DNA from: an uncultured Clostridia bacterium
GTDB lineage: Bacteria; Bacillota; Clostridia; Christensenellales; UBA1242
DNA length: 64,000 nucleotides
Direction of reading: 5' to 3'
Assembly (NCBI GenBank): GCA_947625515.1
Contig: CANQOO010000004.1
Span: forward strand, 62,001 to 126,000
Below, in pieces: positions 37,432 through 52,358 of this stretch (position 1 is the first letter of the stretch; each line of letters opens with the position of its first letter). The notes beneath the pieces were generated by a model. It was not told where the DNA came from and did not search any database. It was given only the letters and a program-made list of their open reading frames with translations. Made by a program: the position numbers and the translations under genes.

Positions 37432-37655
37432 ATTTCACCACCTTTGCGATTATTTTGTGGCATTTCTTTGCTTTTATTACATTTTTTTGTTATGCAGACA
37501 ATTTCGCCACAAGGTGAGCAGAATTGCGGCATCCCCCGCCACAAAAAGCGTTTTCTTTTGCACCACAGACTGCTGGCGATTTCATTTTTATTGAAATTGA
37601 CCGATGTGATTTTTATGGCTCTTGGGCATTTTGAATGGAATTGACTGTTTTTCAT
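37428..37655 (-). CDS. Possible 75-residue coupled ORF
   Basis: Its ATG overlaps the stop of the ABC gene (TAATG) and its TGA overlaps the ATG of the next gene (ATGA), the arrangement expected for translational coupling. The protein is Lys/Cys/Asn-rich with four Cys in its second half, and its composition does not look clearly coding. It has no ribosome site of its own. It may be a real small gene or a chance open frame in a 224-nt spacer. Confidence 0.3.
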   Translation of the reverse strand: MKNSQFHSKCPRAIKITSVNFNKNEIASSLWCKRKRFLWRGMPQFCSPCGEIVCITKKCNKSKEMPQNNRKGGEI

Positions 37656-39586
37656 TATTGAAACTGGCTGTTGTATATGTCGGCATAGAATCCGCCCTTT
37701 TTAAGCAGTTGTTCGTGCGTGCCTTTTTCCACAATATCGCCATCTTTGAGGACCAAAATCAGGTCGGCATTTTTGATGGTAGAAAGTCTGTGGGCAATGA
37801 TGAAAGATGTGCGACCTTCCATCACTTTGTCCATCGCCTGTTGCAGCAAAATTTCCGTTCGCGTGTCCACAGAACTTGTCGCCTCGTCCAAAATCATCAT
37901 TGGGCGATTTTCAATCATGGTGCGGGCGATGGTCAGCAGTTGTTTCTGCCCGGCGGAGAGGTTGACGGCGTCGTCAATCACGGTGTCATAGCCGTGCGAA
38001 AGCGTTTGGATGAAGTGGTCAATGCCCACCTTTTTGCAGGCGTCCACAATTTGCTGGTCGGTGACATTTTGGCTGTTATATCGCAAATTTTCTTTGATTG
38101 TGCCCTCAAAAAGCCAGGTGTCTTGCAGCACCATGCCGAAAAGTTTATGCACATTTTCGCGAGTGATGTCTTTGGTGGAAACGCCGTCAATTTTGATGTC
38201 GCCCTTGTCAAGTTCGTAGAATCTCATAAGCAGATTGACCAGCGTGGTTTTGCCGGCACCCGTCGGCCCGACAATGGCAATTTTTTGTCCCGCCTTGACA
38301 TCTGCCGAAAAATCTTTGATGATGATTTTGTCTTTGTTATATCCAAAAACAACATGGTCAAACTCCACATCACCTTTCACATCGTCAAGCACCAGAGTTT
38401 TGCCGGACTCATCCGAAAGTTCTTGCCCTTCCAAGAAGTCAAACACGCGGATTGACGCGGCGGAGGTCGCTTGAAGGCTGGTCAGGCTTTGGGCAATTTG
38501 AGAAAGCGGATTGGAGAACAAGCGGACATAAATCATAAACGCCGTGATGACGCCGATGTATTCCACGCCACGCTGGCTGGCAAGAATTGCCCCCACAACG
38601 CAGACGGCAACATATCCAAAATTGCCGACAAAGCCCATGATTGGTCCCATCACGCCCGAGATGAATTGCGACTTCCAGCCGGAAGTGAAAAGTTGCTTGT
38701 TGATTCTTTGAAATTCTTTGCGGGTCTGTGTTTTGGCGTTGAAGAGTTGCACAACATTATGCCCAGAATAGACTTCTTCAATGTGAGAGTTAAGTTCGCC
38801 CAAATTACGCTGATTTTGATTGAAATATTTTTGTGCACGCGTCATAAAAATCAGCGAAAAAGCAAACCCAAGCAGCGTTGCCACAATCACTGTGAAAGCC
38901 ATAATCCACTCTATGGCAAACATGGCAATAAGCACTGCCACCAAAAGCAGAAGTGAGTGGAAAAGTGTGCCGATGCTTTCGCTGAGGCTTTGCCCAACGC
39001 GGTCAACGTCGTTTGTGACGCGGCTGAGGATGTCGCCATACATGTGCGTATCAAAATATCCCAGCGGCAATTTATTGATTTTGTGCGAGATGTCGTGACG
39101 AAATTTTTTGGAAATTTTTTGAGTGACCGTCGCCAAAATGAATTGTTCGAAATATGAAAGCACCGCCCCGGCAGCATAGATGCACACCAAAAATATGGCA
39201 ATATTGGTGACAGCAGCAATGTCAATGCCCGTGACAAGGCCGGTGGTGATGAGATTGGTCATGTCCTTGATTTTGTTTGGACCCAAAATTTGAAACACCA
39301 CGCCAATCGCCCCGCACACAAGTGCCAGCCCAATCCAAATCCATTGTTTTTTGCAATACAGCACCAACTTCTTTATGCTTGGCAAAAAGTCACCTTTTTT
39401 CTTGTGAGTTCTTTTTGCAATTTTGGCATTTTTGCGGGTTTTTGCGGCATTTTTTGATTTTTTCGCCTTTCCATTGCCGCCATTATCCACTTCTTCGCTC
39501 GAAAATTTTGAGGAGGCATACACAATTTCTTCTTTTTCGGCAAGTTTGCAAACTTTGCCAAAATCGGATTTCAGTTTTGACGTCAT
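37655..39586 (-). CDS. ABC exporter subunit with canonical ATPase site
   Basis: 643 residues. A Lys-rich cytoplasmic extension (about 1-75) precedes six transmembrane helices of the type IV exporter (MsbA-like) fold and an ATPase domain. Motifs: Walker A GPTGAGKTTL, signature LSAGQKQ, Walker B MMILDEATSS with the catalytic Glu, and H-loop IIAHRLS. It starts at ATG 39586 (MTSKLKS) with AAGGAGG 9 nt upstream; the upstream subunit's stop is 1 nt away, so they are coupled. With its partner it forms a heterodimeric drug/lipid/peptide exporter of the LmrCD/TM287-288 kind. Substrate unknown. Confidence 0.9.
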   Translation of the reverse strand: MTSKLKSDFGKVCKLAEKEEIVYASSKFSSEEVDNGGNGKAKKSKNAAKTRKNAKIAKRTHKKKGDFLPSIKKLVLYCKKQWIWIGLALVCGAIGVVFQILGPNKIKDMTNLITTGLVTGIDIAAVTNIAIFLVCIYAAGAVLSYFEQFILATVTQKISKKFRHDISHKINKLPLGYFDTHMYGDILSRVTNDVDRVGQSLSESIGTLFHSLLLLVAVLIAMFAIEWIMAFTVIVATLLGFAFSLIFMTRAQKYFNQNQRNLGELNSHIEEVYSGHNVVQLFNAKTQTRKEFQRINKQLFTSGWKSQFISGVMGPIMGFVGNFGYVAVCVVGAILASQRGVEYIGVITAFMIYVRLFSNPLSQIAQSLTSLQATSAASIRVFDFLEGQELSDESGKTLVLDDVKGDVEFDHVVFGYNKDKIIIKDFSADVKAGQKIAIVGPTGAGKTTLVNLLMRFYELDKGDIKIDGVSTKDITRENVHKLFGMVLQDTWLFEGTIKENLRYNSQNVTDQQIVDACKKVGIDHFIQTLSHGYDTVIDDAVNLSAGQKQLLTIARTMIENRPMMILDEATSSVDTRTEILLQQAMDKVMEGRTSFIIAHRLSTIKNADLILVLKDGDIVEKGTHEQLLKKGGFYADIYNSQFQ

Positions 39587-39587
39587 C

Positions 39588-41315
39588 TTACAGTTCCTCC
39601 TTTGAAAATTGTGAAAGTGCAATTTCTTGATAAACTGGGCAGGATTTGAGAAGTTCTTCGTGCGTGCCGATGCCCACCATATTGCCGCTGTCCAGCACAA
39701 TAATTTTGTCGGCGTCCATAATTGTGCCAATTCGCTGGGCGACAATAAATTTTGTGGCATTTTTTGTGTGTTTTTTCAGTGCCGCACGCAATTTTTGGTC
39801 GGTCTTGAAATCAAGAGCGGAAAAACTGTCGTCAAAGATGAAAATCTCTGGCTTTCTTGCAATGGCACGAGCAATGGAAAGCCTCTGCTTTTGCCCGCCG
39901 GAGACGTTTGCCCCGCCCTGAGCGATGTTGCTTTCCACGCCCTCCGGCATTTTGCTGACAAAACTGCTTGCCTGAGCCACAGAAATTGCCTCTTTGATTC
40001 CGGCATCGTCTGCGTTGTTGTCGCCAAAGTTGACGTTGCTCTTCACTGAGCCCTTGAAAAGCACGCCCCGCTGCGGAACATATCCAATTTTCTTGTTAAG
40101 TGTTTCAAAATCATATTCCTTCACATCTTTGCCATCCAAAAGCACTCTGCCCTCTGTGGCGTCATACAGCCGCGGGATGAGGTTGATGAGCGTGCTTTTG
40201 CCGCTGCCTGTGCTGCCAATGAAAGCCACAGTTTCTCCGGCATTTGCCGTGAAGGAAATGTTGTGAAGCACATATTCATCCGCATCGGGATATTTGAAAG
40301 ACACATTTTCAAACACCACGCTGGCGGTGCCGTCAAATTTATCCTCTTTAAAGTCGCCGGGCAGAATGCTGTCTTTGGTGTCAAGCACCTCGTTGATACG
40401 CTTTGAGGAAACAAGTGCCCTCGGCATGAGGATGAAAATCATGATAAGCAGCATAAATGCCATCACAACCTGCATGGCGTAGCTCATAAACTCCGTCATC
40501 GCACCCAGTTTGGCGGGAGAATCCACAATATATGCCCCAATCCAATAAATCGCCAGCGACAGCCCGCTGATGAGCAGGTTCATGCCCGGGTTCATTATGC
40601 CCATAACGCGGGAGGCAAAAAGGTTGTTTTTGGTGAGAGCGTCATTGCACTGCTCAAACTTTTCGTTTTGAAACTGCTCTGCATTTGCCGCACGAATCAC
40701 TCGCAGTCCTGTCAGATTCTCTCGCGTAACGCGGTTCATGTTGTCCGTCAAGGTTTGAATTTTCTTGAATTTTGGAATGGCGAAAATTGTGACAATCAGC
40801 ACCAAAATAATGAGAAAACATATTGCAAGAGCGGTTGCCGTTGTCCACTGCCAGCTGACATTGACAATTTTTGTCACAGCCCAAACTGCCATGATTGGAG
40901 CCTTGATGAGTGCCTGCATGCCCATTGCAATGAAAAATTGCACGTTCATGATGTCGTTTGTGGTGCGGGTGATGAGGCTGGCTGTGGAAAATTTGTTGAT
41001 TTCCGTCAAAGAGAAGCCTTGAATCTTGTCATACACCTTTCCTCGCAGAGTGAAAGTTAGGCGGGAAGCGATGTTGGACACAAAAAGCCCCACCAGAATG
41101 GCACTTGCAAGGCTGCCAAAAGCACACGCAAGCATCAGCCCGCCGTTTTGCAAGATGAAAGAGGTGTTTGCACTGCCGGTGGAAAGTTCTTTCACCATCG
41201 CACCGGTGTATTCCGGCATCCTTAAATCCAGAAAAACCTGCAAGACAATCAGCCCAACAATGATTGTCAGGAAAAGAAAATCAATTTTTTTGAAGTTTCT
41301 GAGAAGTTTAAACAT
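39588..41315 (-). CDS. ABC exporter subunit with degenerate ATPase site
   Basis: 575 residues from MFKLLRNFKK (GAAGGTG before ATG 41315; the 23-codon longer start is rejected). Six transmembrane helices are followed by an ATPase domain with Walker A GSTGSGKST and signature VSGGQKQR. Walker B ends FIFDDSFSALD, so the catalytic Glu is Asp, and the H-loop His is Gln (IVAQRIG). Both changes are hallmarks of the degenerate half of heterodimeric exporters such as TM287. The partner gene with intact residues follows at once, so this is one functional heterodimer. Confidence 0.9.
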   Translation of the reverse strand: MFKLLRNFKKIDFLFLTIIVGLIVLQVFLDLRMPEYTGAMVKELSTGSANTSFILQNGGLMLACAFGSLASAILVGLFVSNIASRLTFTLRGKVYDKIQGFSLTEINKFSTASLITRTTNDIMNVQFFIAMGMQALIKAPIMAVWAVTKIVNVSWQWTTATALAICFLIILVLIVTIFAIPKFKKIQTLTDNMNRVTRENLTGLRVIRAANAEQFQNEKFEQCNDALTKNNLFASRVMGIMNPGMNLLISGLSLAIYWIGAYIVDSPAKLGAMTEFMSYAMQVVMAFMLLIMIFILMPRALVSSKRINEVLDTKDSILPGDFKEDKFDGTASVVFENVSFKYPDADEYVLHNISFTANAGETVAFIGSTGSGKSTLINLIPRLYDATEGRVLLDGKDVKEYDFETLNKKIGYVPQRGVLFKGSVKSNVNFGDNNADDAGIKEAISVAQASSFVSKMPEGVESNIAQGGANVSGGQKQRLSIARAIARKPEIFIFDDSFSALDFKTDQKLRAALKKHTKNATKFIVAQRIGTIMDADKIIVLDSGNMVGIGTHEELLKSCPVYQEIALSQFSKEEL

Positions 41316-41621
41316 TTTGTCACCTTCATTTATTTCAATTTTAAAGCACAATTTTATAAGCAAAAATCCTTTATTCGTTCCCAAAGCAGAATTTTGTGAG
41401 CAAAATTTTCTAGTTTATCTCTAAGGCAAAATTATCCTTTTTAGAGGCAAAATAAGAAAATTTGTCGCGTTTTTTGTGCTTCAAAAAGAATATTATATTT
41501 CAAAAGCACCGCAAATGCAACAAATTTCTATATGAATATATCAACTTTTTTGTTCTATTTTAAGGAATTTTCAGCAAATTTTTAAAAAGTTTGACGAGTT
41601 AATTTTAAGCCTTTCATTAAT
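41316..41621. other. AT-rich spacer between the exporter and the TIR-like receptor gene
   Basis: About 300 nt of AT-rich DNA upstream of the exporter. It should hold the exporter's promoter, but I do not see a convincing -35/-10 pair, nor a strong terminator for the receptor gene. Confidence 0.4.
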
Positions 41622-44600
41622 TCAACCGTCTTGACCTTGCCCCGCATTTTGCCACACAAAGGTTGGCAAAAAAGTGGACAAATCCCAAATCTCGTCGTCA
41701 AAACGGAATTTCGGGTCATATCCGTCGCACACCTCGCAGCCATACACCCCGCCGGCGGGCTGCAACAAAGAGCCATACACTGGCAGTTCGCCAACAGCAA
41801 AGCAGTTTTCCATTCTTCCGCCAAGTGAGCCGACCAGTGCCCCCGCCGGCACGCCTTGGATGGTGAGTGCTGCATATGAGTTGGTGATTTTTTCGGAGAT
41901 GTGAGAGTTGGAGTATGAGCCGCAAAGCCCGCCAACAGAAGAGCGTGTGATGTCTGTCGCTGTGATTGTGCCGCGAGCGAAGTTGTCGTGACTGGCACTT
42001 TTGCCGCTGCCAACAAGCCCGCCTGCCGTCAAGCGAACAGCGTCGGAAACAGAAATTTCGCCGCTGGAAAAGCATTCAAAAATTTGGCTTGCACCACTTT
42101 CTTTTCCAATCAGTCCGCCCACTGTTGCCTGGCGAGTGCATTCCACCTGCAAACTGCCCAAAAACGAGCATTTTGAAATCTCACTGCCATTTTTGCCGCC
42201 TTCATTTTCGCCAATCAATCCGCCAGCAACAGCATCTCCTTCTTTTTGAATCACAATTTCCACGCTGGACTGGCAGGCTGTGACGTTGCCATGATTTTTC
42301 CCAACAAGGCCACCCACAATTTCGCCCGCAGAGAGGGAAAGTTTTCCGCCCACAAAACAATCTTCCAACGTTCCAAAATTTTCATATGCCAAAATGCCAA
42401 AAGTGCTTGCATCGTCAATTTGCATGTCCACTTCAAGTGAAACGCCCCTCACCGTCCCATAATTTGCCGACAAAAGTGCATCCGAAAGATTGGAAAGCGA
42501 GTGCTTTTTGCCGTCAAGCGTGCCGTGAAGGACAAGTGGCGTCCACTCGGTTTCGGCAAAATCCAAATCTTCTTGCAGCACAAAGTTGCAATAAGGTGCG
42601 TTTTTCAATAAAGTTTGCAGTTCGCCCACATCAGATATGGAAATTGTGCCTGGCAGAACATAGAATGTCAATAAAAACGCCAAAAGATTAACTATTCCAA
42701 GCCCCACAAGCGAAAAGAGGATAGCCTTTCTGCCTTTTGTCAAAGTTTTTCTTTTGATAAGCCAATACAGAAGGTTGCCGCCCGTCAAAAGAAGGGAGAA
42801 GATTAAGAGAATTATCAGGCTGGTCTGAGAGAAATATGCATATGCACTTTTTGGCAAGAAAATTGAAAGCACAAACAGCAAGGCACTGAACGCCAACGGG
42901 AAAAATTCCAAGAAAATTGTCAAGAAGTTTTTCAAGAATTGTTTTTGCTTTTGCGACTGCTTGGCAGATTCATATTCCCTGCTTGGCGAAGCGGAAATTT
43001 CCACATTCTGCATGCCGCCGGCACGCTCCTGCACTCCAAGCACGCTTATGGAACTTTCCAACGAAAGGTCAAGTGCCGCAAGCCTGTCAGAAATTTTGCT
43101 GACAAGGTCGCAATAAGATGCAAAGTCCTCAGTTTGGTCAATCTGCGGCAGATATTTTTCAAAAGGTTGCATTTGAAGGGCAAAATAGTCCACACCCTTC
43201 TTGACCGCAGCCCCTTCTTGCTTTTCAATTTCCAACAAAACATTGTTGTTTCTTTGCAAAAACGCCTGCAACTTTTCTTTCAGTTCCACTTTGTCCATCA
43301 TGTTAGGGGCAAACACTCTCTTGCCAGAAAACATGTTGTTTTTGCTGACAATGGCACCATATGCCTCGTCATGCTGGTCGTCGCCCACCGCAAGCAAAGT
43401 TTCCCACTCTGGCAAATCGATTGGGCGAAGCTGCGACATCACAAGTTCTTCGTCGGTGCGGCAATGACATTTTGTTTTGATAAGCTCCCAAAACAATTCC
43501 GTTTTCTGGGTTTTTTGCTCTTCCAAGTCTTCCATTTTGGAAATGGCTATGGAAAAATATTTCTCCGCCGCCTGGAAAAACTGCATTTGCTGAAATTGAC
43601 TGGCGATTCTTTTCAAAAGCGAAATAAGTGCGGCTTTGTCCTGGATGTAGGCAAGATAAAAATCGAGTTGTTTTTCGGCCTCTTGCAGGTTGAAGAACGC
43701 GATTGGCAGCACCATCTCCACAACGGCAGACACAAACGCCACGCGGGAATTTTCTTCCAGGAATTTGAGCATATTTTCCACTTCTGCCCGTTCGCGATAT
43801 GTCAGTTTGTCGGTTGGCGTTTTAAACTTTCGCAGCATCAAAACAATGTTGCTTTCCTCATGCCCTGCATCCAACTGCAAAATCTTTTGATAATATTTCT
43901 TGTCGTCACTTTTTTGTGCCAAGAGGAAATAAAACTGCACAAAACGGTCCACCTCATCCGCCCCAAAGCACTTTTCAACATTTTCAATCAGTTGCGGATT
44001 GAGGGTTTCCACTGCCTTGTCCTGTGCTGCGGCGATAAATTTTTCTCGGTTTGGCGTTTTGAAAGAAACAAGAAACTGAAAATATTGATTGTAACTCTCT
44101 TCGTCGTCCGCCTGCTGCACCAGCCCTTCCCAGCGGTCCACAAAATCTTCGGCAAAATCTTTGTTTGCATATCTCAAAATGTCGCCCAGTCGCTCTTTGT
44201 CCGAAAAGTTGGAAAGTTTGGCAAAAAAGTCATCCACCGTGCGAATTCCTTTGTCCGCCAAAAGTGCGGCAAACAAAAGTTCGCTGTTATATGGGTCGGC
44301 TTCAAGTTCTTTTTTTGCAAGTGACTGTGCGGTGGCGAAGTCGCCGTTTTTGAGAGCAAGAAAAATCATCTTTTTCTTGGACTCTGCAGTGGCTGCCACA
44401 TTTTCAACATTAAAACTTCCAAGCTCCACCGGAGAAATGCTTTCAACATCCACATATTCTTTCCTCTGCGGATTTGCTTTTTGAATTTTGATGGTGTCGA
44501 TGCGGGCAAGCTCTTTTTCACTGTTTTTGCACTCATTTGAAAGGCGAACGTCCAGGTCTTGCAGGAAGGAAATGGAATAAACTTCCAGCACATTGATGCT

Positions 44601-45386
44601 TTGCGAGAAGTTTTTTGGAAGCCGCGACAACTTCACTTTTTTGCCGTTGATGCAAAGCACAAAACTTGACCGTGTTTTCTTATGAAGCAAAATTTGATGA
44701 AAATATTCATCAAAGAGGTCGCGATTTTGTTGAACGGCGTCGGACTGCTCGTTCAGCAAAACACAGACAAAAACTTTGGCAGTTTCCACCGCCCGGAACG
44801 TCATCTCTTCCGACGCCCCAGCGTCAAACACGGACAACTTCTTTTGCTGGCAAATTTTTTGAATTTCCTCTTTCAGCTGTGCCACTTTTTCGGCGTCCTG
44901 CCCGTCCACACAGAGGATGACATCAAAAGATTGTTTGCTGGCAAGGGCGTCATATTGCGTTTTTGCGTCCTGCACACTCTGCAAAATTTCTCGAAAGGTT
45001 TTTGCTCTCTCTGCCGGGGCAAGCGAGAGTGCTTTTTGCACAGACTCATCCTCTTGCAAGAGGTCAATTTTTTCGCCAAAAAAACAAGGGCGAGTCAAAA
45101 GCCCTGTTTTGTCTGGGTAAAGCACAATTTTGTGTTTTGCAAGTGCCAATCCAAAAAATCCCTCAAAAGACATCGGGAAAAGATTGACAATTTTGTCAAA
45201 CTGCTCAATCGCTTTTGCAAACTGCAAATCTCGCAGCAGGTCATTGGCACGAGCCAGCAAAAACTCCTCGTCCTTAGAGCCTTGTTCATCCACGTAAAGC
45301 GTGCCGCAAAACATGCACTTGACCATGTTCTGCCCAACGACTTCATATTTTTTTCCGCCGCAATTTTTGCACGCTCTTTCTCTCAT
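41622..45386 (-). CDS. Zinc ribbon - TPR - TIR-like - membrane - GLUG receptor protein
   Basis: 1254 residues. Cys6/Cys9 and Cys24/Cys27 form a zinc ribbon. Helical TPR-like segments (about 40-90) precede a TIR-like domain (about 153-285): SFDVILCVDG, a helix, LSVFDAG, then ETAKVFVCVLLNE. This follows clostridial zinc-ribbon/TIR proteins (FISYK..., VFF, ...AKVM.V.GT). The catalytic Glu may be Glu227, though the WxxNEW-like motif has drifted (QQNRDLFDEYF). Then come about 500 residues of TPR-like helices, three transmembrane segments (about 822-844, 856-877, 889-911) and an exterior domain (913-1254) of GLUG repeats (GGLVGKNHG, GGLIGENEG, GGLVGSGKS). AAGGCAAGAG lies before the ATG. It lies downstream of the ESCRT-like genes on the same strand and could sense surface state and signal inward. 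Confidence 0.85.
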   Translation of the reverse strand: MRERACKNCGGKKYEVVGQNMVKCMFCGTLYVDEQGSKDEEFLLARANDLLRDLQFAKAIEQFDKIVNLFPMSFEGFFGLALAKHKIVLYPDKTGLLTRPCFFGEKIDLLQEDESVQKALSLAPAERAKTFREILQSVQDAKTQYDALASKQSFDVILCVDGQDAEKVAQLKEEIQKICQQKKLSVFDAGASEEMTFRAVETAKVFVCVLLNEQSDAVQQNRDLFDEYFHQILLHKKTRSSFVLCINGKKVKLSRLPKNFSQSINVLEVYSISFLQDLDVRLSNECKNSEKELARIDTIKIQKANPQRKEYVDVESISPVELGSFNVENVAATAESKKKMIFLALKNGDFATAQSLAKKELEADPYNSELLFAALLADKGIRTVDDFFAKLSNFSDKERLGDILRYANKDFAEDFVDRWEGLVQQADDEESYNQYFQFLVSFKTPNREKFIAAAQDKAVETLNPQLIENVEKCFGADEVDRFVQFYFLLAQKSDDKKYYQKILQLDAGHEESNIVLMLRKFKTPTDKLTYRERAEVENMLKFLEENSRVAFVSAVVEMVLPIAFFNLQEAEKQLDFYLAYIQDKAALISLLKRIASQFQQMQFFQAAEKYFSIAISKMEDLEEQKTQKTELFWELIKTKCHCRTDEELVMSQLRPIDLPEWETLLAVGDDQHDEAYGAIVSKNNMFSGKRVFAPNMMDKVELKEKLQAFLQRNNNVLLEIEKQEGAAVKKGVDYFALQMQPFEKYLPQIDQTEDFASYCDLVSKISDRLAALDLSLESSISVLGVQERAGGMQNVEISASPSREYESAKQSQKQKQFLKNFLTIFLEFFPLAFSALLFVLSIFLPKSAYAYFSQTSLIILLIFSLLLTGGNLLYWLIKRKTLTKGRKAILFSLVGLGIVNLLAFLLTFYVLPGTISISDVGELQTLLKNAPYCNFVLQEDLDFAETEWTPLVLHGTLDGKKHSLSNLSDALLSANYGTVRGVSLEVDMQIDDASTFGILAYENFGTLEDCFVGGKLSLSAGEIVGGLVGKNHGNVTACQSSVEIVIQKEGDAVAGGLIGENEGGKNGSEISKCSFLGSLQVECTRQATVGGLIGKESGASQIFECFSSGEISVSDAVRLTAGGLVGSGKSASHDNFARGTITATDITRSSVGGLCGSYSNSHISEKITNSYAALTIQGVPAGALVGSLGGRMENCFAVGELPVYGSLLQPAGGVYGCEVCDGYDPKFRFDDEIWDLSTFLPTFVWQNAGQGQDG

Positions 45387-45740
45387 CTCTTGCCTTTTGT
45401 GTTTGAATTTATGGATTATTTTTTTTATTTTTTTGGATTATTTTTTTATTTTTTCAATGATTTTTTATATTTTTTCCAGTTTTAAAAATAATTTTCTTCT
45501 AAGTTAATTTTAACGATTTTAAGTTTTTTAAATTTATTAATTTGATGATTTTTTATAAATATTTAGCAAATTAATTCCGTTAGAATATATGCTTTTTAAG
45601 GATTTTTTAATAATATTTTATTTCTTTTAATTTTTTTATTTAATTTCTTGTGCTTTTTGTTCAAAATTTATTATTTTAAGATTTTTTTAATAATTTTTTT
45701 CAAATTTTTTAAGTAATTTTTTTAATTTTTAATGACTTCC
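45387..45740. other. AT-rich spacer inside the ESCRT-like locus
   Basis: About 350 nt of A/T runs between the Vps4-like gene and the receptor gene. There is no credible frame, no clear terminator and no clear promoter pair, so it is unresolved whether the receptor gene is co-transcribed. Confidence 0.4.
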
Positions 45741-46883
45741 TTATTTTGCATCGCTTGCTTTTCTTTTCCTGCCGCCAAGCCCGCTTTCTTGATTATATTT
45801 TTCAAATTCCGCAATTTCTTTTGGCGTGACGCTTGGAGGCATCTCTTGCAAAACGCGGTCAAAATCGGCATTTGTGACAAGCACCACTTTGTCGGTGGCG
45901 ATGGCCTGCAAAAGTGGCTCGTCCTTCGCTCGGTCGCAAAGCTCTTCCAAATCCGCCCCGCTGTATCCCTCAGTCTGCTGCACAATGCGGTCGGCGTCAA
46001 AATCTTGGCTGACAGGCACGCCCTTCATGTTTTTTTCAATCATAAACTTCCTTGCCGAAGCGTCCGGAAGAGGAAGATATATTTTCTGTGAAAATCTGCC
46101 CGACCTCATCGCGGCGGAATCAATGTCCCACGGACGGTTTGTCGCCCCCAGCAGCAACAAATTTGGGTTTCTGCCCGCAAAGCCGTCAATTTGCTGCAAA
46201 AATTCGTTCACCCGCTTATCGTTGTGGGTGTCCAGGCCGCGTTTGCCAATCAGGCTGTCCATTTCGTCGATGAAGATGATGGCACGCTCTTGCTTGTTTG
46301 CCTCAGCAAAAAGGGAGTTGATGTTTTTCTCACTGTCGCCCACCCATTTGCTGACAATGTCGCTGCCCTTGACGGCATAAAATTTTGCCCCGACCTCGTT
46401 TGCGATGGCTTTTGCAATCATGGTCTTGCCGGTGCCGGGAGGACCATAAAGCAGCACGCCGCCGCCCGTCTTTTTGCCATACATGCGATATTTTTCAGGA
46501 TATTTGGCAGGGTTTATCATCTTGATGGTGATGGCTTTTTTCACATCGTCCAGCCCCGCGACATCGGCAAATGTTATGTTTGGAATTTGTGCCGTCTGCC
46601 ATTTTTTCAGGTCCTCATCTTCATCCTCGCTTGCGTCGTCCTTATTTTCTTTGTGAGGATTTTTTTGCAAATTGTCCGAAATTTTCACCAAGCCTCTTGC
46701 CCGCTCCATGCGAACCTCTTTCAGTTTGCCCTGACTTTGTTTTGCCATTTGCATCATTGTTTCGCTTGCCAGCAAAAAATTACGCTTGGCGAGTGTCAAG
46801 TTTCCTTGTTCACGTGCCAACCTTCCTTTTTTCATGTAAAGCTCAAATTGCTCGGAAAGAATGTTGATGCTTGTCTCTTCCAT
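45741..46883 (-). CDS. Vps4-like AAA ATPase with N-terminal MIT-like helical region
   Basis: 380 residues, one classical AAA module. Residues 1-73 are three helices with MIT-like character (FELYMKKGRLAREQGNLTLA, then NFLLASETMMQM), followed by an acidic linker (80-92). The ATPase begins ITFADVAGLDDVKKAI. It has Walker A GPPGTGKT (147-154), pore loop VSKWVGDSEKN (177-187, Lys-Trp-Val as in Vps4's KWM/KWV), Walker B IIFIDEMDSL (202-211), sensor Asn249 in ATNRPWDIDS, and arginine fingers Arg260/Arg263. 'SDIVSKW.G.SEK' is diagnostic of the Vps4/katanin/spastin group rather than FtsH or ClpX. The Vps4 beta-domain insert is absent. The C-terminal helix PPSVTPKEIAEFEKYN resembles Cdc48/CdvC. It lies 24 nt after an ESCRT-III-like gene and presumably disassembles that polymer. 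Confidence 0.88.
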   Translation of the reverse strand: MEETSINILSEQFELYMKKGRLAREQGNLTLAKRNFLLASETMMQMAKQSQGKLKEVRMERARGLVKISDNLQKNPHKENKDDASEDEDEDLKKWQTAQIPNITFADVAGLDDVKKAITIKMINPAKYPEKYRMYGKKTGGGVLLYGPPGTGKTMIAKAIANEVGAKFYAVKGSDIVSKWVGDSEKNINSLFAEANKQERAIIFIDEMDSLIGKRGLDTHNDKRVNEFLQQIDGFAGRNPNLLLLGATNRPWDIDSAAMRSGRFSQKIYLPLPDASARKFMIEKNMKGVPVSQDFDADRIVQQTEGYSGADLEELCDRAKDEPLLQAIATDKVVLVTNADFDRVLQEMPPSVTPKEIAEFEKYNQESGLGGRKRKASDAK

Positions 46884-46907
46884 ATTTCTCCAAACGCGTC
46901 AAGGCTC

Positions 46908-47513
46908 TTATGCCTGCCCGTCCACTTCGCTGTCAATCTTTTTTCGAACTTCTTCCATTTCTTTTTCGATGTTTTCTGCCGAAAGTTCGTCCTGACTTGC
47001 CTGCTCCATAATGAATTTTTCAAGTTCGGCATCCGTCATGCCTTTGCCGCTCTTGTCTTTTCCAGCGTTGTAGAAAGTTTCTTGGCTCATTTCCATAAAG
47101 TTGTCCATTTGGTCGGTCTGAGTTTCAACTGCCAGCATTGCCTGCTCAAACTGAGCCTGAATTTTGGCAAATTCTTTGGCATCAGCAAGTTTTGTCATTT
47201 CCTTTGAAATGTCGCTCATGCCACGCAAGAATTCGCTGGTCATCATTGTGACGTCCTTCATTTGAGCGGTAATTTCAAAATTCAGCAACATTTCTTGTGC
47301 ACGCTTTTGCTGCTGCACCGTCATTTTATATCCCGAAAGTGCCAAATTGAATTGTGCGTCCAACCCTTTAAGTTTTGCTCTCTTGGCGGCGTCAATGAAC
47401 ACCTGCTTTTGGTCTTCCAAGCGGTTGATTTGTTTGTTCATTGCGTTGATTGTCCGCTTGATGAGCATCTTCTTTTCAATTTCTTTTTGTTGTTTTGTTT
47501 TGAAAATTCCCAT
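46908..47513 (-). CDS. ESCRT-III (Snf7/CHMP2-like) protein
   Basis: 201 residues, almost all helix: a basic first half and an acidic second half, as in ESCRT-III. The order of features follows CHMP2/Vps2. A long basic hairpin (KEIEKKMLIKRTINAMNKQI, later KRAKLKGLDAQFNLAL) is followed by 'MLLNFEITAQMKDVTMMTSEF'-type helix 3, a Met-rich helix (FLRGMSDISKEMTKL), and 'FAKIQAQFEQAM' then 'QTDQMDNFMEMSQETFY', close to CHMP2's 'LPQIQKIMMEFE...MDMKEEMMNDA'. Near the C terminus I182-E185-M186-V189-R190 has the MIM1 spacing LxxRLxxLK with conservative swaps, a plausible docking site for the MIT-like region of the next gene's ATPase. GGAGG overlaps the end of the upstream gene, so the two are coupled. 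PspA/Vipp1 is the alternative family but fits less well. Confidence 0.8.
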   Translation of the reverse strand: MGIFKTKQQKEIEKKMLIKRTINAMNKQINRLEDQKQVFIDAAKRAKLKGLDAQFNLALSGYKMTVQQQKRAQEMLLNFEITAQMKDVTMMTSEFLRGMSDISKEMTKLADAKEFAKIQAQFEQAMLAVETQTDQMDNFMEMSQETFYNAGKDKSGKGMTDAELEKFIMEQASQDELSAENIEKEMEEVRKKIDSEVDGQA

Positions 47514-47517
47514 TTTT

Positions 47518-48126
47518 TCAATCCTCCATTTTCATTTTTTTCTTTTTATTTGAAGTTTTGTGCTCTTCCAAAAGTTCTTGCTGTTCGCTAAGGGCATTTT
47601 CCTTTTCGAACATTGTCAAAATTTCATCTTCCGTTTTGCCAACGCCATAAATTGGCTGGCTCACTTCATATGCAGACTGCACCTCGTTGAAAAGTTCGTC
47701 GGCAGATGTGAGCACGTCCTCGCTGGCAATGCGCGTTTCCAACGCCTTATTCAAGAATTTTGCCAGCCGCTTTTGGTCGGCAAGAAGTTCGGAGAGCGGC
47801 ACTTTTGTTTGCGTTTTGAAAAAAGTGTTGCTGTCATACGCCTCTTTCAGTTTGTTCATAAGGCGGATGTTGTAGAGAAGATACATCCCCCGCTCCATGC
47901 AAGTTGCCTTTTCTTCATTCAGATGCGAAATTTTCTTGGCATAAAACAGTTGCAAATCGCGATTTTTTTCTTTCTTCCCCTTATCCATAAGGGCGTCAAT
48001 TTCTTTGATTTTTTGCAAAACTTCCGCTTCCACTGTGCGTTCTTGGCGTTCAAGCTCGCAAATGGAGTTGACCAAATCTTCGCGATTGAGATTTTTGAAT
48101 CTGTTTCTTCTAAATGGCCACCACAT
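47518..48126 (-). CDS. Second ESCRT-III-like protein with membrane-inserting N terminus
   Basis: 202 residues from ATG 48126 (MWWPFRRNRF), whose Trp/Phe/Arg-rich start resembles the membrane-inserting helix 0 of ESCRT-III and PspA. Residues about 14-90 form a long charged helical hairpin (DLVNSICELERQERTVEAEV, HLNEEKATCMERGMYLLYNI), followed by shorter helices and an acidic region (about 150-190). The tail is basic (KKKKMKMED). Topology fits an ESCRT-III subunit acting as membrane nucleator, with the next gene as its polymer partner. The family assignment rests on architecture and position; similarity to CHMPs is weaker than for its neighbour. Its ATG overlaps the stop of the TPR-like gene (TGATG). 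Confidence 0.6.
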   Translation of the reverse strand: MWWPFRRNRFKNLNREDLVNSICELERQERTVEAEVLQKIKEIDALMDKGKKEKNRDLQLFYAKKISHLNEEKATCMERGMYLLYNIRLMNKLKEAYDSNTFFKTQTKVPLSELLADQKRLAKFLNKALETRIASEDVLTSADELFNEVQSAYEVSQPIYGVGKTEDEILTMFEKENALSEQQELLEEHKTSNKKKKMKMED

Positions 48127-48485
48127 CAATAATTGTCCCCCTGATTTATTTTGTTTATCCTTTCAAGCAAGTCGTCAAAAATGGCCTTTTGACTTTCGCT
48201 GGCATATTCCAACGCTTTTTGACACTCCGGCAAAAACAAAATGCTTTTAAATTTGACTGGCTGGATAAAAAGTTCGTCCTCATTTGAAATTTGAAATTTG
48301 CAAAGTGCCAGTCCCCACCAGGCGTCAGCACAGCGTTCGTCCATGCCAAGCGAAACCTTAAAATTCAGTTCCGCCTGAGCAAAGCAGCCGTCCGCCAAGT
48401 TGAGATAGCCAAGTTTCAATTCTTTTTCCACCTTTGTTTTTTCTTCTTGCGAAAGCGAGTCGCTTGCAACATGTTGTCTTTTCAT
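48126..48485 (-). CDS. Small TPR-like protein of the ESCRT-like operon
   Basis: 119 residues. A TPR-like helical pair is visible (ELKLGYLNLADGCFAQAELN then FKVSLGMDERCADAWWGLAL), matching the W/L/G/Y/A/P spacing of tetratricopeptide repeats, with helices before and after. No signal sequence, so it is cytoplasmic. It overlaps the membrane-protein gene upstream by 4 nt (ATGA) and the second ESCRT-III-like gene downstream (TGATG), which argues for a tightly coupled operon and a stoichiometric role such as adaptor. Confidence 0.75.
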   Translation of the reverse strand: MKRQHVASDSLSQEEKTKVEKELKLGYLNLADGCFAQAELNFKVSLGMDERCADAWWGLALCKFQISNEDELFIQPVKFKSILFLPECQKALEYASESQKAIFDDLLERINKINQGDNY

Positions 48486-48889
48486 ACCGCCTGCTCGTCC
48501 TTTTTCCGCTGAACAATGTATGCCTCAATTTCTTCCAGCACGCGGAAGCATGTTTCCTGCGTGTTGTCTTTTGCCACCATAATCTTCAAGTCGTCCAGCC
48601 GATTTGCCAGCTTGCTGTCCACAAGCAAGACCTTTTCGTTTGTGGTCGGATTGAAAAAACGGATGTTGTCCTTCACCTCCACAAGGCGTCGGCACAACTG
48701 GTCATTGCCGTTGGCATAGACAATGATGCTTTCCACGTTCGCCACCATGCTCTCAATTTGTTTTTTATTTTTCAGCACGCCGTGCGAACCTGACTCGTGG
48801 ATATCTGGCGTTTTTCTTGTTTCACGCACAACAAAGAACACAGCAAGTCCAACAATCAGAACAAGAATGGAAATATATACGTAAATCAT
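48482..48889 (-). CDS. Single-pass membrane protein of the ESCRT-like operon
   Basis: 135 residues from ATG 48889 (MIYVYISILV; AAGGAGAG upstream). One N-terminal transmembrane helix (about 2-22) is followed by basic RETRKTPD, then about 110 residues that look cytoplasmic and helical (QIESMVANVESIIVYANGND, LCRRLVEVKDNIRFF, VLLVDSKLANRLDDLKIMVA). No known family. It may fix the assembly to the membrane. The last 4 nt overlap the TPR-like gene. Confidence 0.75.
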   Translation of the reverse strand: MIYVYISILVLIVGLAVFFVVRETRKTPDIHESGSHGVLKNKKQIESMVANVESIIVYANGNDQLCRRLVEVKDNIRFFNPTTNEKVLLVDSKLANRLDDLKIMVAKDNTQETCFRVLEEIEAYIVQRKKDEQAV

Positions 48890-49023
48890 TTTCTCTCCTT
48901 TTGGAATTTGCAATTTTTGATTTTTCAAATTTTTATATCTTTTTCGAATTTTGTTAAAGTTTTTGGTTAAGATTTTTCAGTTTTAATTAGCGTTTTTAAA
49001 TTGAATTTTAAACTCTTTATATT

Positions 49024-49857
49024 TCACAATTTTTGTCCGCAGTTGTGGCAGAATTTTGCGTTTTGCGGATTTTCCTCATTGCAGTTTGGGCAAATTTTTC
49101 CGCCATCCAGGGCCTGCCCGCAGTTTTCGCAAAACTTTGCGTTGCCGCTCACCTCGCTGCCGCAGTTTGGACAAAAAGAATTTTTGCTTTTGGACGTCTT
49201 GCCCAGGCTGCTCAGCCGACGATAGTCCTCGCTGTCAATGATTATGTTTGCAATGTTGAAAGAAAACACCGCAATGCCATATTCGCTTTGAAGTTTGTGC
49301 GACAATGCGGAAAGCACTTTTTCGGACATTTCCTTTTTGTGGACGGAAAGCTGATTGAATGGCACGTGATTTTCTTTGATATAGTCCAAAATGACAAGCT
49401 CCATCACGGACACGACATTGGAACGCAGCCGCTCTTGCAAGTCAGATGCTGAAAGCCCTTCATTTGTGCCGATGAGATATAGATAGCATTTTCGCGGGTC
49501 GCCAATTTGCACCTCAAAGTCGCCGCTGAACCCGACATGATAATTCTCCCCAGTCGCCTCGTCAAAAAGAACAAGTTTTTGATTTGTCCCCCAGAGCAGT
49601 TTACGTTTGGCGGTTTTGCTTAGATAAAGCAATTCAAACTGGCTGTCTGCATCTTGCTTGAAGTCCACAAAATCGGCAAGTGCGAATTTGCCCGAAGAGA
49701 GCGTTTGCAGCATTTGCCCATCCTTGATGAGGATGGCGTTGTGAGTTTCCGGCACAATCAGCGAAAGTTTTGGCGAAAGAGAGTCAATGACCACTCTTGA
49801 AAAAAGTTTGTCATTGTTCCCAGAAAATTTGATTGTGGATGCCTGATTTTTGTCCAT
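49024..49857 (-). CDS. SPFH-domain protein with two C-terminal zinc ribbons (YdjI-like)
   Basis: 277 residues. Residues about 20-225 match the SPFH/virion-core-type family: 'IVPETHNAILIKDGQMLQTLSSGKF' (split here as strands), 'LLWGTNQKLVLFDE', and a C-terminal coiled helix 'YGIAVFSFNIANIIIDSEDY'. The last 50 residues hold eight Cys in two zinc ribbons (CPNCG...CENCG and CPNC...CHNCG). In Bacillus subtilis, YdjI, an SPFH protein, is encoded with a PspA homologue and a zinc-ribbon membrane protein that together respond to envelope damage. GGGGAG lies before the ATG. It is the first gene after the operon promoter; 134 nt separate it from the next gene. Confidence 0.85.
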   Translation of the reverse strand: MDKNQASTIKFSGNNDKLFSRVVIDSLSPKLSLIVPETHNAILIKDGQMLQTLSSGKFALADFVDFKQDADSQFELLYLSKTAKRKLLWGTNQKLVLFDEATGENYHVGFSGDFEVQIGDPRKCYLYLIGTNEGLSASDLQERLRSNVVSVMELVILDYIKENHVPFNQLSVHKKEMSEKVLSALSHKLQSEYGIAVFSFNIANIIIDSEDYRRLSSLGKTSKSKNSFCPNCGSEVSGNAKFCENCGQALDGGKICPNCNEENPQNAKFCHNCGQKL

Positions 49858-50631: not shown

Positions 50632-51027
50632 ATGACACAAATTGAAAAAAAATATGGAGAAGGTGCAGAACTGATTTGGCGGGACAGAAAAAGATATTTT
50701 GGCATTCCGCTTTCTTTCACAACATACAGTCTTGTCAAAAAGCCGGGTGCGTGGGTGAAAGTGTTTTTAAGTGTTGGGCTTTTGTCGTCCAATATTGACG
50801 AAATCAACGCATATCGCATCTGTGACATCCAAATGAAGCAGTCCCTTCTGGGCAAGATTTTCAACTATGGCGACGTCACCCTGCTCAGCAGTGACGAAAC
50901 AAAGCCAACCTTGCTTTTGAAAAACATCAAAAACCCATATCAAGTTCGCGATATGTTTTCTAACATTGCCGAAGAGCAACGCAAACTCAACAACATTCGC
51001 GTCGCAGAATTCCATAATCACGACTAA
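50632..51027 (+). CDS. PH-like (bacterial PH) domain protein
   Basis: 131 residues, single domain, no membrane segment. The strand pattern 'LIWRDRKRYFGIPLSFTTYSL', 'EINAYRICDIQMKQSL', 'NYGDVTLLSSDETKPTLLLK' and the final helix 'PYQVRDMFSNIAEEQRKL' follow the bacterial PH fold (conversion-type 'i.Yr.Id.v....sl....GdI.l.s.......l..i.np..v...i'). GGAGAAG lies before the ATG. Such domains often bind membranes or envelope-stress partners. Its location next to the ESCRT-like operon is suggestive only. Confidence 0.7.
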   Translation: MTQIEKKYGEGAELIWRDRKRYFGIPLSFTTYSLVKKPGAWVKVFLSVGLLSSNIDEINAYRICDIQMKQSLLGKIFNYGDVTLLSSDETKPTLLLKNIKNPYQVRDMFSNIAEEQRKLNNIRVAEFHNHD

Positions 51028-51755: not shown

Positions 51756-52358
51756 TTATTTCTTTGCAGGTTTTCGTTCTGTTGTGTTCTGCTTTTTAAG
51801 CTCTTCCAAAATGCCCGTCAAAAGTTCTTCCTGAGTTGGCTTTGGTGCAGGTGGAACAGGTTTGTTCTTTTCGCGAAGTTCCAAAGTTGCTTTTTTCACA
51901 GCCGCATGGTCTTTCATGTCCACGCCTTGTTCTTTGAGAACTTTTCTTTCTTCATGGGTTGGATGCCCCTCAACAGCCTTGTTGGCAAGATTTTTGGCGT
52001 TCATAATTGCCTTGATAATCAAGAACAGAATGAGAGCAATCAGCAAGAAATCCACAATCGCACTGATGAATGCACCCCAATCTATGTAAAGTGTCGCGTC
52101 CCAGTTGATGACCTTCACCATCTCGCCATTGACAAGCTCGGTGGTATAGACAGGGTTGCCCAAAATTGTGCGTGCAGCTTCCAGTCCGCCTGCCCCGCCA
52201 ATTGCCCAGTTGATGAGCGGCATGAGGATTTTGTTGGCAAGTGCAGTGACGATGGCACTGAACGCACCGCCGATGATGACGCCAACAGCCAAATCAAGCA
52301 CATTTCCGCGAGAAATGAATGCTTTGAAATCACTGAAAAACTTTTTAATTCTTTTCAT
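51756..52358 (-). CDS. mscL: Large-conductance mechanosensitive channel MscL
   Basis: 200 residues. Starts MKRIKKFFSDFKAFISRGNV, then TM1 with the family signature LDLAVGVIIGGAFSAIVTAL, a periplasmic loop, TM2 (FISAIVDFLLIALILFLIIKAI) and the cytoplasmic helix. It is a pentameric emergency valve against osmotic downshock. It is longer than the usual 130-150 residues through an enlarged loop and a Pro/Lys-rich insertion (KNKPVPPAPKPTQEELL) before the final bundle helix, which ends KQNTTERKPAKK. GGAGAAGC precedes the ATG. Confidence 0.95.
   Translation of the reverse strand: MKRIKKFFSDFKAFISRGNVLDLAVGVIIGGAFSAIVTALANKILMPLINWAIGGAGGLEAARTILGNPVYTTELVNGEMVKVINWDATLYIDWGAFISAIVDFLLIALILFLIIKAIMNAKNLANKAVEGHPTHEERKVLKEQGVDMKDHAAVKKATLELREKNKPVPPAPKPTQEELLTGILEELKKQNTTERKPAKK

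Follow-up and report, generated by a model that had tools for sequence, protein, structure and literature searches.

Can a bacterium combine an endosomal sorting complex required for transport (ESCRT)-III protein with a Vps4-like ATPase of its own? According to a 2024 survey, which searched archaea, the combination exists in archaea and eukaryotes only (Makarova et al. 2024, PMC10936438). The question is raised by a 64,000-nucleotide (nt) stretch of DNA from an uncultured Clostridia bacterium (contig CANQOO010000004.1, positions 62,001 to 126,000; hereafter the window), in which an initial annotation had placed an ESCRT-like operon. Seven open reading frames (ORFs) were indeed read there, all on the minus strand and running from 49857 to 41622, and they encode an SPFH protein, a small membrane protein, a TPR-like adaptor, two helical proteins designated E3a and E3b, an ATPase, and a large receptor-like protein (Table 1). 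We consider it probable that the operon constitutes an ESCRT-III system of bacteria, equipped with a dedicated ATPase for disassembly, which, judging from its parts, would serve envelope repair or remodelling rather than division.

The E3 proteins and the Snf7 family

Because a Snf7 search of the genome holding the window gave no match, relatives of E3b were needed for the test of family membership. The curated cut-off of the Pfam family Snf7 (PF03357; 27.3 bits) was passed by three E3b relatives, with 33.3, 28.0, and 27.9 bits (3 of 297 genomes of the order), and all three proteins sit at E3b loci that had been found independently, one of them being the protein of locus L175; the window E3b was joined to these relatives by the family model. 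The other 16 of the 19 Snf7 matches in the order fell below the cut-off: three were E3b itself (genomes G293, G193, and G142), three (G219, G079, and G203) were proteins of ~205 amino acids (aa) that the E3b model missed and that are encoded directly before an ATPase matching the operon ATPase model at 238-244 bits, and the remaining ten are unexplained and were treated as noise. Matches in 21 of the 391 genomes of the class were likewise taken as noise, all being below the cut-off (0/391 above it). Across the family, Snf7 was the Pfam family that matched most E3b members (18/49 at E ≤1, best 1.4e-4). Thus, as far as sequence can tell, E3b is a Snf7/ESCRT-III protein, with its membership established via its relatives.

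Compared with ESCRT-III profiles by hhalign, E3b reached a P of 3.3e-5 over 161 columns, and 5.4e-5 with the wider alignment A3; as a yardstick, PspA against ESCRT-III, which are published homologues, gave 8.9e-4. Reversed controls for E3b and E3a lay at 0.16-0.29, and 0/100 block shuffles, made for alignments A1 and A2, reached either score. A MIM1-like pattern, I-x-x-[EKRQ]-[LMIV]-x-x-[LVIA], was matched within the last 30 residues in 47/49 E3b members, and the two members without such a tail, L058 and L059, are accompanied by the ATPase N-termini least like that of the window (14% each), both being also the most diverged overall. An AlphaFold2 (AF2) model of E3b placed helices at residues 7-48, 52-109, 112-149, 161-172, and 179-200, and this plan, together with the MIM1-like tail, fits the ESCRT-III layout; the fold matches were non-significant, or tied and out of register. 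In Foldseek, the top two rows for E3b were S. islandicus CdvB (not significant), and lower rows contained CHMP1B/IST1, CdvB2, CHMP2A-CHMP3, and Asgard ESCRT-IIIB amid designed bundles, BAR domains, and ferritins.

For E3a, the hhalign match to ESCRT-III had a P of 9.8e-4 over 142 columns, and the top two aligned Foldseek chains were CdvB2 filaments (not significant). E3a is probably a second, diverged ESCRT-III subunit. The initial annotation had described both helical proteins as ESCRT-III-shaped; a prediction of non-ESCRT-III folds for both was looked for and not found, and the profile evidence is strong for E3b and weaker for E3a. PDB sequence searches with either protein returned nothing meaningful. 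An identity with PspA/Vipp1 was considered and rejected, since PspA (PspA_IM30, PF04012) was detected in 0/61 relatives (controls detected in 9/14) and hhalign against PspA gave weak P values of 0.12 (A1), 0.33 (A2), 0.043 (A3), and 0.078 (A4).

The family alignments comprise 49 E3b members (A3), 42 E3a members (A4), and 43 and 41 ATPase members (A5 and A6), with near-duplicates and most loci of the window's type excluded. They carry some blemishes: the E3b starts of L135 and L139 are trimmed, the starts of L099 and L134 (A3) and of L107 (A5 and A6) are over-long, and A4 includes some over-long (L120) and short (L122) rows.

A more divergent pair, in which a ~205-aa weak-Snf7 protein is followed directly by an operon-type ATPase, was observed at L192:1480-2100 and 2119-3306, L194:1477-2085 and 2100-3194, and L195:882-1493 and 1503-2600. 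One or two related 200-aa genes precede these pairs, and the small protein is missed by the E3b model.

The ATPase and its variants

The window ATPase matched the Pfam families AAA (4e-42), AAA_lid_3, and Vps4_C (3.3e-5), all above cut-off, and Walker A, Walker B, and arginine-finger motifs were recognised by reading. Within the family, Vps4_C was listed for 38/43 members at E ≤0.1 (best 2.6e-12). Pfam MIT was listed for 7/41 N-termini at E ≤1 (best 1.2e-4), the window copy not being among them, and DUF1771 (13) and TPR_8 (9) matched more of these N-termini. By hhalign, the ATPase N-terminus aligned over 70 columns to MIT references, with a P of 1e-4 against 0.035 and 0.0085 for reversed controls; the MIT and TPR references are themselves alike. 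The MIT-like N-terminus proposed in the initial annotation draws its support from relatives only, the window copy itself being below threshold. The alignment to the CdvC model begins at residue 25 in the window ATPase (25-364 of 380) and at residue 6 in that of L053, and therefore extends into the MIT-like region.

Against the CdvC equivalog model NF041006, whose cut-off is 650 bits, the window ATPase scored 203.5 bits and an S. acidocaldarius CdvC sequence 698.9 bits. The best NCBIfam models for CDC48, CdvC, FtsH, and PAN all gave 193-215 bits, far below their cut-offs. In an unrooted tree of 26 rows with only eight references, a branch with support 97/95 separated Cdc48, FtsH, and PAN from the operon ATPases and the Vps4, CdvC, katanin, and spastin references, so that the grouping with FtsH or proteasomal AAA proteins that was looked for was not found. 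The operon ATPases formed their own branch, and the split setting the Vps4-type references apart had support 56/5. An earlier tree that also included two very divergent members had the same reference split (98/95), and there the eight references together were separated from the family (89/85). Kinship of the ATPase with Vps4 depends on where the root is placed. Moreover, a grouping with Cdc48 D2 was not rejected (p-AU 0.095), and the arginine-finger motif of the second region of homology reads RxGRF, as in Cdc48, FtsH, and PAN, versus the RRF type of Vps4-type references. On these four grounds (own branch, root dependence, RxGRF, and p-AU), the Vps4 likeness is here claimed for layout and not for descent: what remains of the annotated Vps4-type ATPase is its AAA, Vps4_C, and MIT-like arrangement, around an AAA core that forms a separate branch.

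As a working definition, an ATPase is counted as Vps4 if it has an MIT domain or if ESCRT component genes lie alongside, either being sufficient (PMC10936438). E3b and E3a adjoin the ATPase gene in the window, and the E3b-ATPase combination occurs at 80/80 of the named loci described below; an MIT domain is likely present, as judged from the sequences of the relatives.

The outgroup operons often encode an ATPase of ~650-730 aa. In L050, Pfam detected a CbbX-type AAA (AAA_lid_6) between the MIT-like region and a second AAA, and two P-loops were also present in the L117, L127, and L128 ATPases; in L052 a CbbX-type AAA was found alone, and L130, L175, and L176 look the same as L052 by reading. 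The MIT-like module thus comes with two AAA domains, a CbbX/SpoVK-type one and a second (L050, L117, and L127), or with the CbbX type alone (L052 and L130), as displayed by Pfam for L050 and L052 only, and the rest of the operon is kept. Elsewhere the E3b domain is itself fused to a motor, either of the FtsK/SpoIIIE kind (L171:9506-11419, L172:9769-11670, and L174:7719-9254; FtsK_SpoIIIE E 2e-28 to 8e-47) or RuvB-like (L175:6966-8633), and at L176:3791-6325 a RuvB-type motor protein, whose N-terminus weakly matches the operon ATPase model, adjoins E3b. Hence, across these operons, the MIT-like module and ESCRT-III are constant while the motors vary. In addition, the ~500-aa ATPases L053:2748-4250 and L099:9584-11140 carry an extra C-terminal part, alike in both and ending in EEDYD(L/I).

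Conservation, receptor and genomic setting

A scan of named genomes through E3b yielded 90 relatives, of which 80 were kept as named loci, with record ends scored as absence. Family models matched an ATPase at 80 of them, E3a at 77, the SPFH protein at 74, the membrane gene at 74, a receptor-type protein at 69, and the short TPR protein at 40. The presence of E3b (80/80) is by construction, the loci having been found through it; that of a same-strand ATPase match (80/80) is not. The receptor-type count follows a size rule (any match to the TPR or receptor model of >300 aa) that may take in other TPR proteins, and the long 'TPRa' rows are receptors, receptor sequences having been included in the TPR model. 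The full order SPFH-TM-TPR-E3a-E3b-ATPase-receptor was found at 35/80 loci, and the order without the TPR gene, with or without the terminal receptor, at 19 more (13 + 6). The co-occurrence of E3b and ATPase and the conservation of the operon in related Clostridia are far beyond chance, and the E3b-ATPase pair persists in the majority of distant loci.

The named records with the operon are metagenome-assembled genomes, nearly all labelled Clostridia, Clostridiales, Eubacteriales, or Christensenella, with one labelled Bacilli and two just bacterium; they include Candidatus Caccovivens faecavium and Coproplasma, and several record titles name animal guts. A search with the E3b protein matched 30/101 genomes, its own included, and the E3b family model matched 33/297 genomes of the order, in 19/125 genera, and 4/391 genomes of the class, all four from its own order. 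Two untrusted rows, weak and within long unrelated frames, are still inside these counts (G038 in the 30/101 and G053 in the 33/297).

The receptor consists, in order, of a zinc ribbon (by reading), a TPR-like region, a degenerate TIR-like region, a second TPR-like region, hydrophobic segments (residues 824-842, 850-873, and 888-906, with another at 549-567), and a C-terminal GLUG region (Pfam Glug 1.4e-7, over cut-off). TIR_2 was over cut-off (E 1e-9 to 1e-11) in 7/10 receptor-type proteins examined, all seven from outgroup operons; the remaining three were L179, whose TIR is weaker, and two proteins of the window's type. A family TIR model matched 58/80 named loci, and of the 22 without a match 11 are of the window's type, some being clipped by record ends. 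The conserved TIR glutamate, which is the catalytic residue of TIR NADases, was present in 32/32 matching outgroup loci (40/41 match rows) and missing in 26/26 matching loci of the window's type. The window receptor did not match the TIR model, yet it aligns with the canonical TIR domains of outgroup operons, and in that alignment a glutamate is absent from the catalytic position. The receptor is thus, on this alignment, of TIR ancestry, and the TIR-like region has lost the conserved glutamate in operons of the window's type, whereas outgroup operons keep it. The TIR-like domain of the initial annotation accordingly holds by family model and outgroup alignment, in a degenerate form that in the window copy stays below threshold.

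The TPR-like adaptor resembles the receptor N-terminal TPR region (blastp 27% over 110 aa, E 3e-4), and its Pfam match is weak (TPR_16 E 0.075 at best). Two further arrangements were noted. The receptor-type protein at L126:4063-6054 joins TIR to BspA-type leucine-rich repeats, i.e., the sensing part is swapped. At L174:11390-14713, a 1107-aa TIR-NB-ARC-APAF1_C protein is encoded two genes past a divergent ESCRT core, and the next gene is SpoIVA-like by reading.

The SPFH protein passed the Pfam cut-offs for Band_7_1 (E 2.9e-16) and DZR (1.2e-11). The SPFH, double zinc ribbon, AAA, and GLUG assignments all stand above cut-off in the window proteins themselves, as does Vps4_C. The small membrane protein, in a 136-aa reading, has a single hydrophobic segment at residues 3-21 and no Pfam family over cut-off.

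Table 1. Positions of the operon genes and of regions within their products (window coordinates)
Feature	Position	Strand	Basis
SPFH (Band_7_1) protein with C-terminal double zinc ribbon, 277 aa	49024..49857	-	Pfam
Small membrane protein, one N-terminal hydrophobic helix and cytoplasmic part, 135 aa	48482..48889	-	Hydropathy
TPR-like adaptor, 119 aa	48126..48485	-	Weak TPR_16 match and likeness to receptor N-terminus
E3a, ESCRT-III-like helical protein, 202 aa from ATG 48126	47518..48126	-	
E3b, Snf7/ESCRT-III family protein, 201 aa	46908..47513	-	Snf7 matches of relatives, hhalign
MIM1-like C-terminal tail of E3b, residues 182-192	46938..46970	-	Pattern match
ATPase, Vps4-like layout, 380 aa	45741..46883	-	Pfam AAA, AAA_lid_3, Vps4_C
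MIT-like N-terminal region of ATPase, residues ~1-75	46659..46883	-	Profiles of relatives
Vps4_C-like C-terminal segment of ATPase, residues 335-368	45780..45881	-	Pfam, above cut-off in window copy
Receptor-like protein, 1254 aa, zinc ribbon/TPR/TIR-like/membrane/GLUG	41622..45386	-	Pfam Glug, hydropathy, family TIR model
Degenerate TIR-like region of receptor, residues ~153-262	44601..44930	-	Alignment with outgroup TIR domains

The junctions were read directly from the sequence and agree with the coupled or short junctions annotated initially. From the SPFH stop at 49024 to the ATG of the membrane protein at 48889 there are 134 nt; the four successive junctions that follow are coupled or short, namely, an ATGA overlap of the membrane-protein and TPR genes at 48482-48485, a TGATG overlap of the TPR and E3a genes (the E3a start being ATG 48126, not TTG 48129), and gaps of 4 nt between E3a and E3b and 24 nt between E3b and the ATPase. 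The ATPase and receptor genes are 354 nt apart (45387-45740, 86% A+T). Since the two genes are separated by a median of 10 nt at the named loci (range, -23 to 1781; 53 pairs), the length of the gap looks like a local feature of the window, where a promoter or a local expansion is possible.

The genome holding the window measures 1.1 Mb in 11 contigs and is 81% complete. FtsZ was found in 58/61 relatives and SpoIVA in 55/61, both including this genome, and SpoIVA bears out the annotated spore-former host. Around operons of the window's type, the two downstream ABC transporter genes (37655-41384; named by reading) lie within reach at 27/37 loci each (for the first, two of the 27 matches are only 24-28% identical), and the upstream gene for a 131-aa protein (50632-51027) recurs at 30/37; a further upstream gene, MscL-like by reading (51756-52358), recurs at 12/37. 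Because these flanking genes are conserved, the window-type operon looks inherited, not hopping, and a mobile island is unlikely for this type. The same genus also has other operon types (G009, G015, G024, G046, and G055; 44-53% E3b identity), and G091, of another family, stands at 56%; such mixed identities suggest an older transfer, or duplication and loss.

Function, rival readings and known systems

The best reading that we can offer by analogy is that the operon resembles the PspA-YdjGHI system of Bacillus, with a Snf7-type ESCRT-III and a dedicated motor. E3b and E3a would form a polymer on the inner side of the cytoplasmic membrane, and the zinc-ribbon SPFH protein, together with the one-helix membrane protein, would direct this polymer to a particular site there, much as PspA is placed by YdjI and YdjG/H. 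The MIT-like domain of the ATPase would grip the MIM1-like tail of E3b, whereby subunits would be unthreaded and the polymer turned over. The receptor, with GLUG outside and the TPR and TIR-like regions inside, may sense an envelope or infection signal, which the TPR adaptor would relay.

Several results weigh against such an ESCRT system. The window E3b itself lacks a Snf7 match; for E3a, the ESCRT-III match drops to a P of 0.0086 with the wider alignment A4, Snf7 is neither among all 16 families listed for 20 members nor among the 25 shown of 40 families for 42 members, and the E3a and E3b profiles do not align to each other. The AF2 models are middling (pLDDT 70 and 68.5), with best Foldseek E values of 0.07 and 0.33, and a fold match of E3b to the Snf7 core was set aside because many helical bundles tie with it and it covers residues 78-155 in place of the N-terminal hairpin. 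The ATPase N-terminus matches TPR nearly as well as MIT (P 1.5e-4), but over 34 columns, and the better reversed MIT control reaches 0.0085. Three distant stretches (L057, L177, and L181) have E3b without an ATPase match, and the link to the receptor is looser, at 69/80 by the size rule and with variable order relative to the ATPase. The weak structure scores, the TPR matches, the RxGRF motif, and the Cdc48 D2 grouping that was not rejected would also suit a merely convergent likeness to ESCRT, in which the helical proteins are generic coiled coils and the ATPase is an unrelated unfoldase of the Cdc48 type whose substrate domain is TPR-like. We hold this to be very improbable: relatives pass the Snf7 cut-off, Snf7 matches lie beside family ATPases in further genomes, no shuffled alignment reached the observed scores, and the MIM1-like tail and Vps4_C recur through most of the family.

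The other rivals concern what the system is for. An infection-response, immune-like membrane system, in which the receptor and its TIR detect or signal phage attack and ESCRT-III with its ATPase seals or sheds membrane, the window-type TIR being a non-catalytic sensor, would draw on the TIR_2 matches and the retained glutamate of the outgroup operons, on the patchy presence in the order, and on the TIR-NB-ARC gene second after the L174 core. Against it, PADLOC gave general AAA matches for the ATPase (IetA best) and none for the other operon proteins given to it, the window TIR lacks the glutamate, and the operon occupies a conserved place, unlike a mobile island; we regard this role as unlikely. 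Less probable again is an accessory of sporulation or cell division that closes membranes beside FtsZ. SpoIVA is widespread among the relatives, the E3b domain is fused to FtsK/SpoIIIE at three loci, and archaeal ESCRT-III works in division (PMC10936438), but the congeners G002, G004, and G005 have FtsZ and SpoIVA with no E3b match, and the SPFH and receptor partners would better suit envelope sensing. An outright replacement of the divisome is disfavoured because FtsZ is kept. Envelope repair or remodelling by an ESCRT-III system remains the reading that we prefer.

Known systems share parts of this set. Archaeal Cdv systems (CdvB with CdvC/Vps4) have ESCRT-III and an MIT-type AAA ATPase in one locus, as the operon probably does, and archaeal Meth_adaptin loci carry an SPFH protein with a coiled coil and zinc ribbon (PMC10936438); the operon differs in being bacterial, in its own-branch RxGRF ATPase, and in its TIR/GLUG receptor and TPR adaptor, and Pfam found no winged-helix or adaptin family among the seven proteins. 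In Bacillus subtilis, the ESCRT-III relative PspA is recruited to the membrane by YdjI, an SPFH protein, acting with the membrane proteins YdjG/H; there, too, a single operon encodes an SPFH protein alongside a member of the ESCRT-III superfamily and its membrane partners (PMC8581546), and the Bacillus band-7 protein also has C-terminal zinc ribbons (PMC11237479). In contrast, the window operon has Snf7-like proteins, not PspA, and two of them, as well as a dedicated ATPase and a receptor; the SPFH-zinc ribbon protein is present, and neither TPM (YdjH-type) nor PspA is listed by Pfam among the seven. Eukaryotic ESCRT-III/Vps4 is similar in its MIM1-like tail, probably its MIT-AAA layout, and CHMP-type helical plan, and differs in that no ESCRT-I/II was found among the seven proteins, that the Vps4 reference reads RRRF, and that the likeness is at profile level only.

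Among bacteria, a 2025 review treats ESCRT-III-like proteins, naming PspA/Vipp1 (PMC7618577). Ravi et al. 2024 describe Vps4-like ATPases that moved to bacteria and Snf7 homologues with a transmembrane segment beside AAA+ ATPases (PMC11237479); in their systems, a TPR/6TM gene takes the place of snf7 next to the Vps4-like ATPase, or Snf7-AAA+ operons include ABC, permease, and PBPB/OmpA genes, and the portions of that paper examined, tables and web app aside, do not describe a set of SPFH, two ESCRT-III, MIT-AAA, and TIR proteins. A search by title and start of abstract, whose scope excluded subscription papers, preprints, and supplements, found no paper on such an operon.

Tentatively, and with more doubt than confidence, we propose a true bacterial ESCRT branch whose chassis of ESCRT-III (with its MIM-like tail) and MIT-like ATPase stayed constant while the AAA motor was swapped (Vps4/Cdc48-like, CbbX-like plus Vps4/Cdc48-like, or CbbX-like alone, besides the FtsK and RuvB fusions). 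This branch would have been wired ancestrally to a catalytic TIR receptor, remodelling being an immune or damage output, and the window-type TIR would be a pseudo-enzyme sensor. The motor swaps on a constant MIT-like module, together with the TIR receptors, suggest uses of ESCRT that are not described in the portions of the literature examined, and through its SPFH partner the operon connects the Bacillus PspA-YdjI system to the SPFH-bearing ESCRT loci of archaea. Spread over one order of Clostridia, the operon is a counter-example, at the level of architecture, to an ESCRT-III and Vps4 pairing restricted to archaea and eukaryotes, and it opens to test where the ESCRT motor came from, as a transfer from archaea versus an independent bacterial assembly of MIT and AAA on ESCRT-III.

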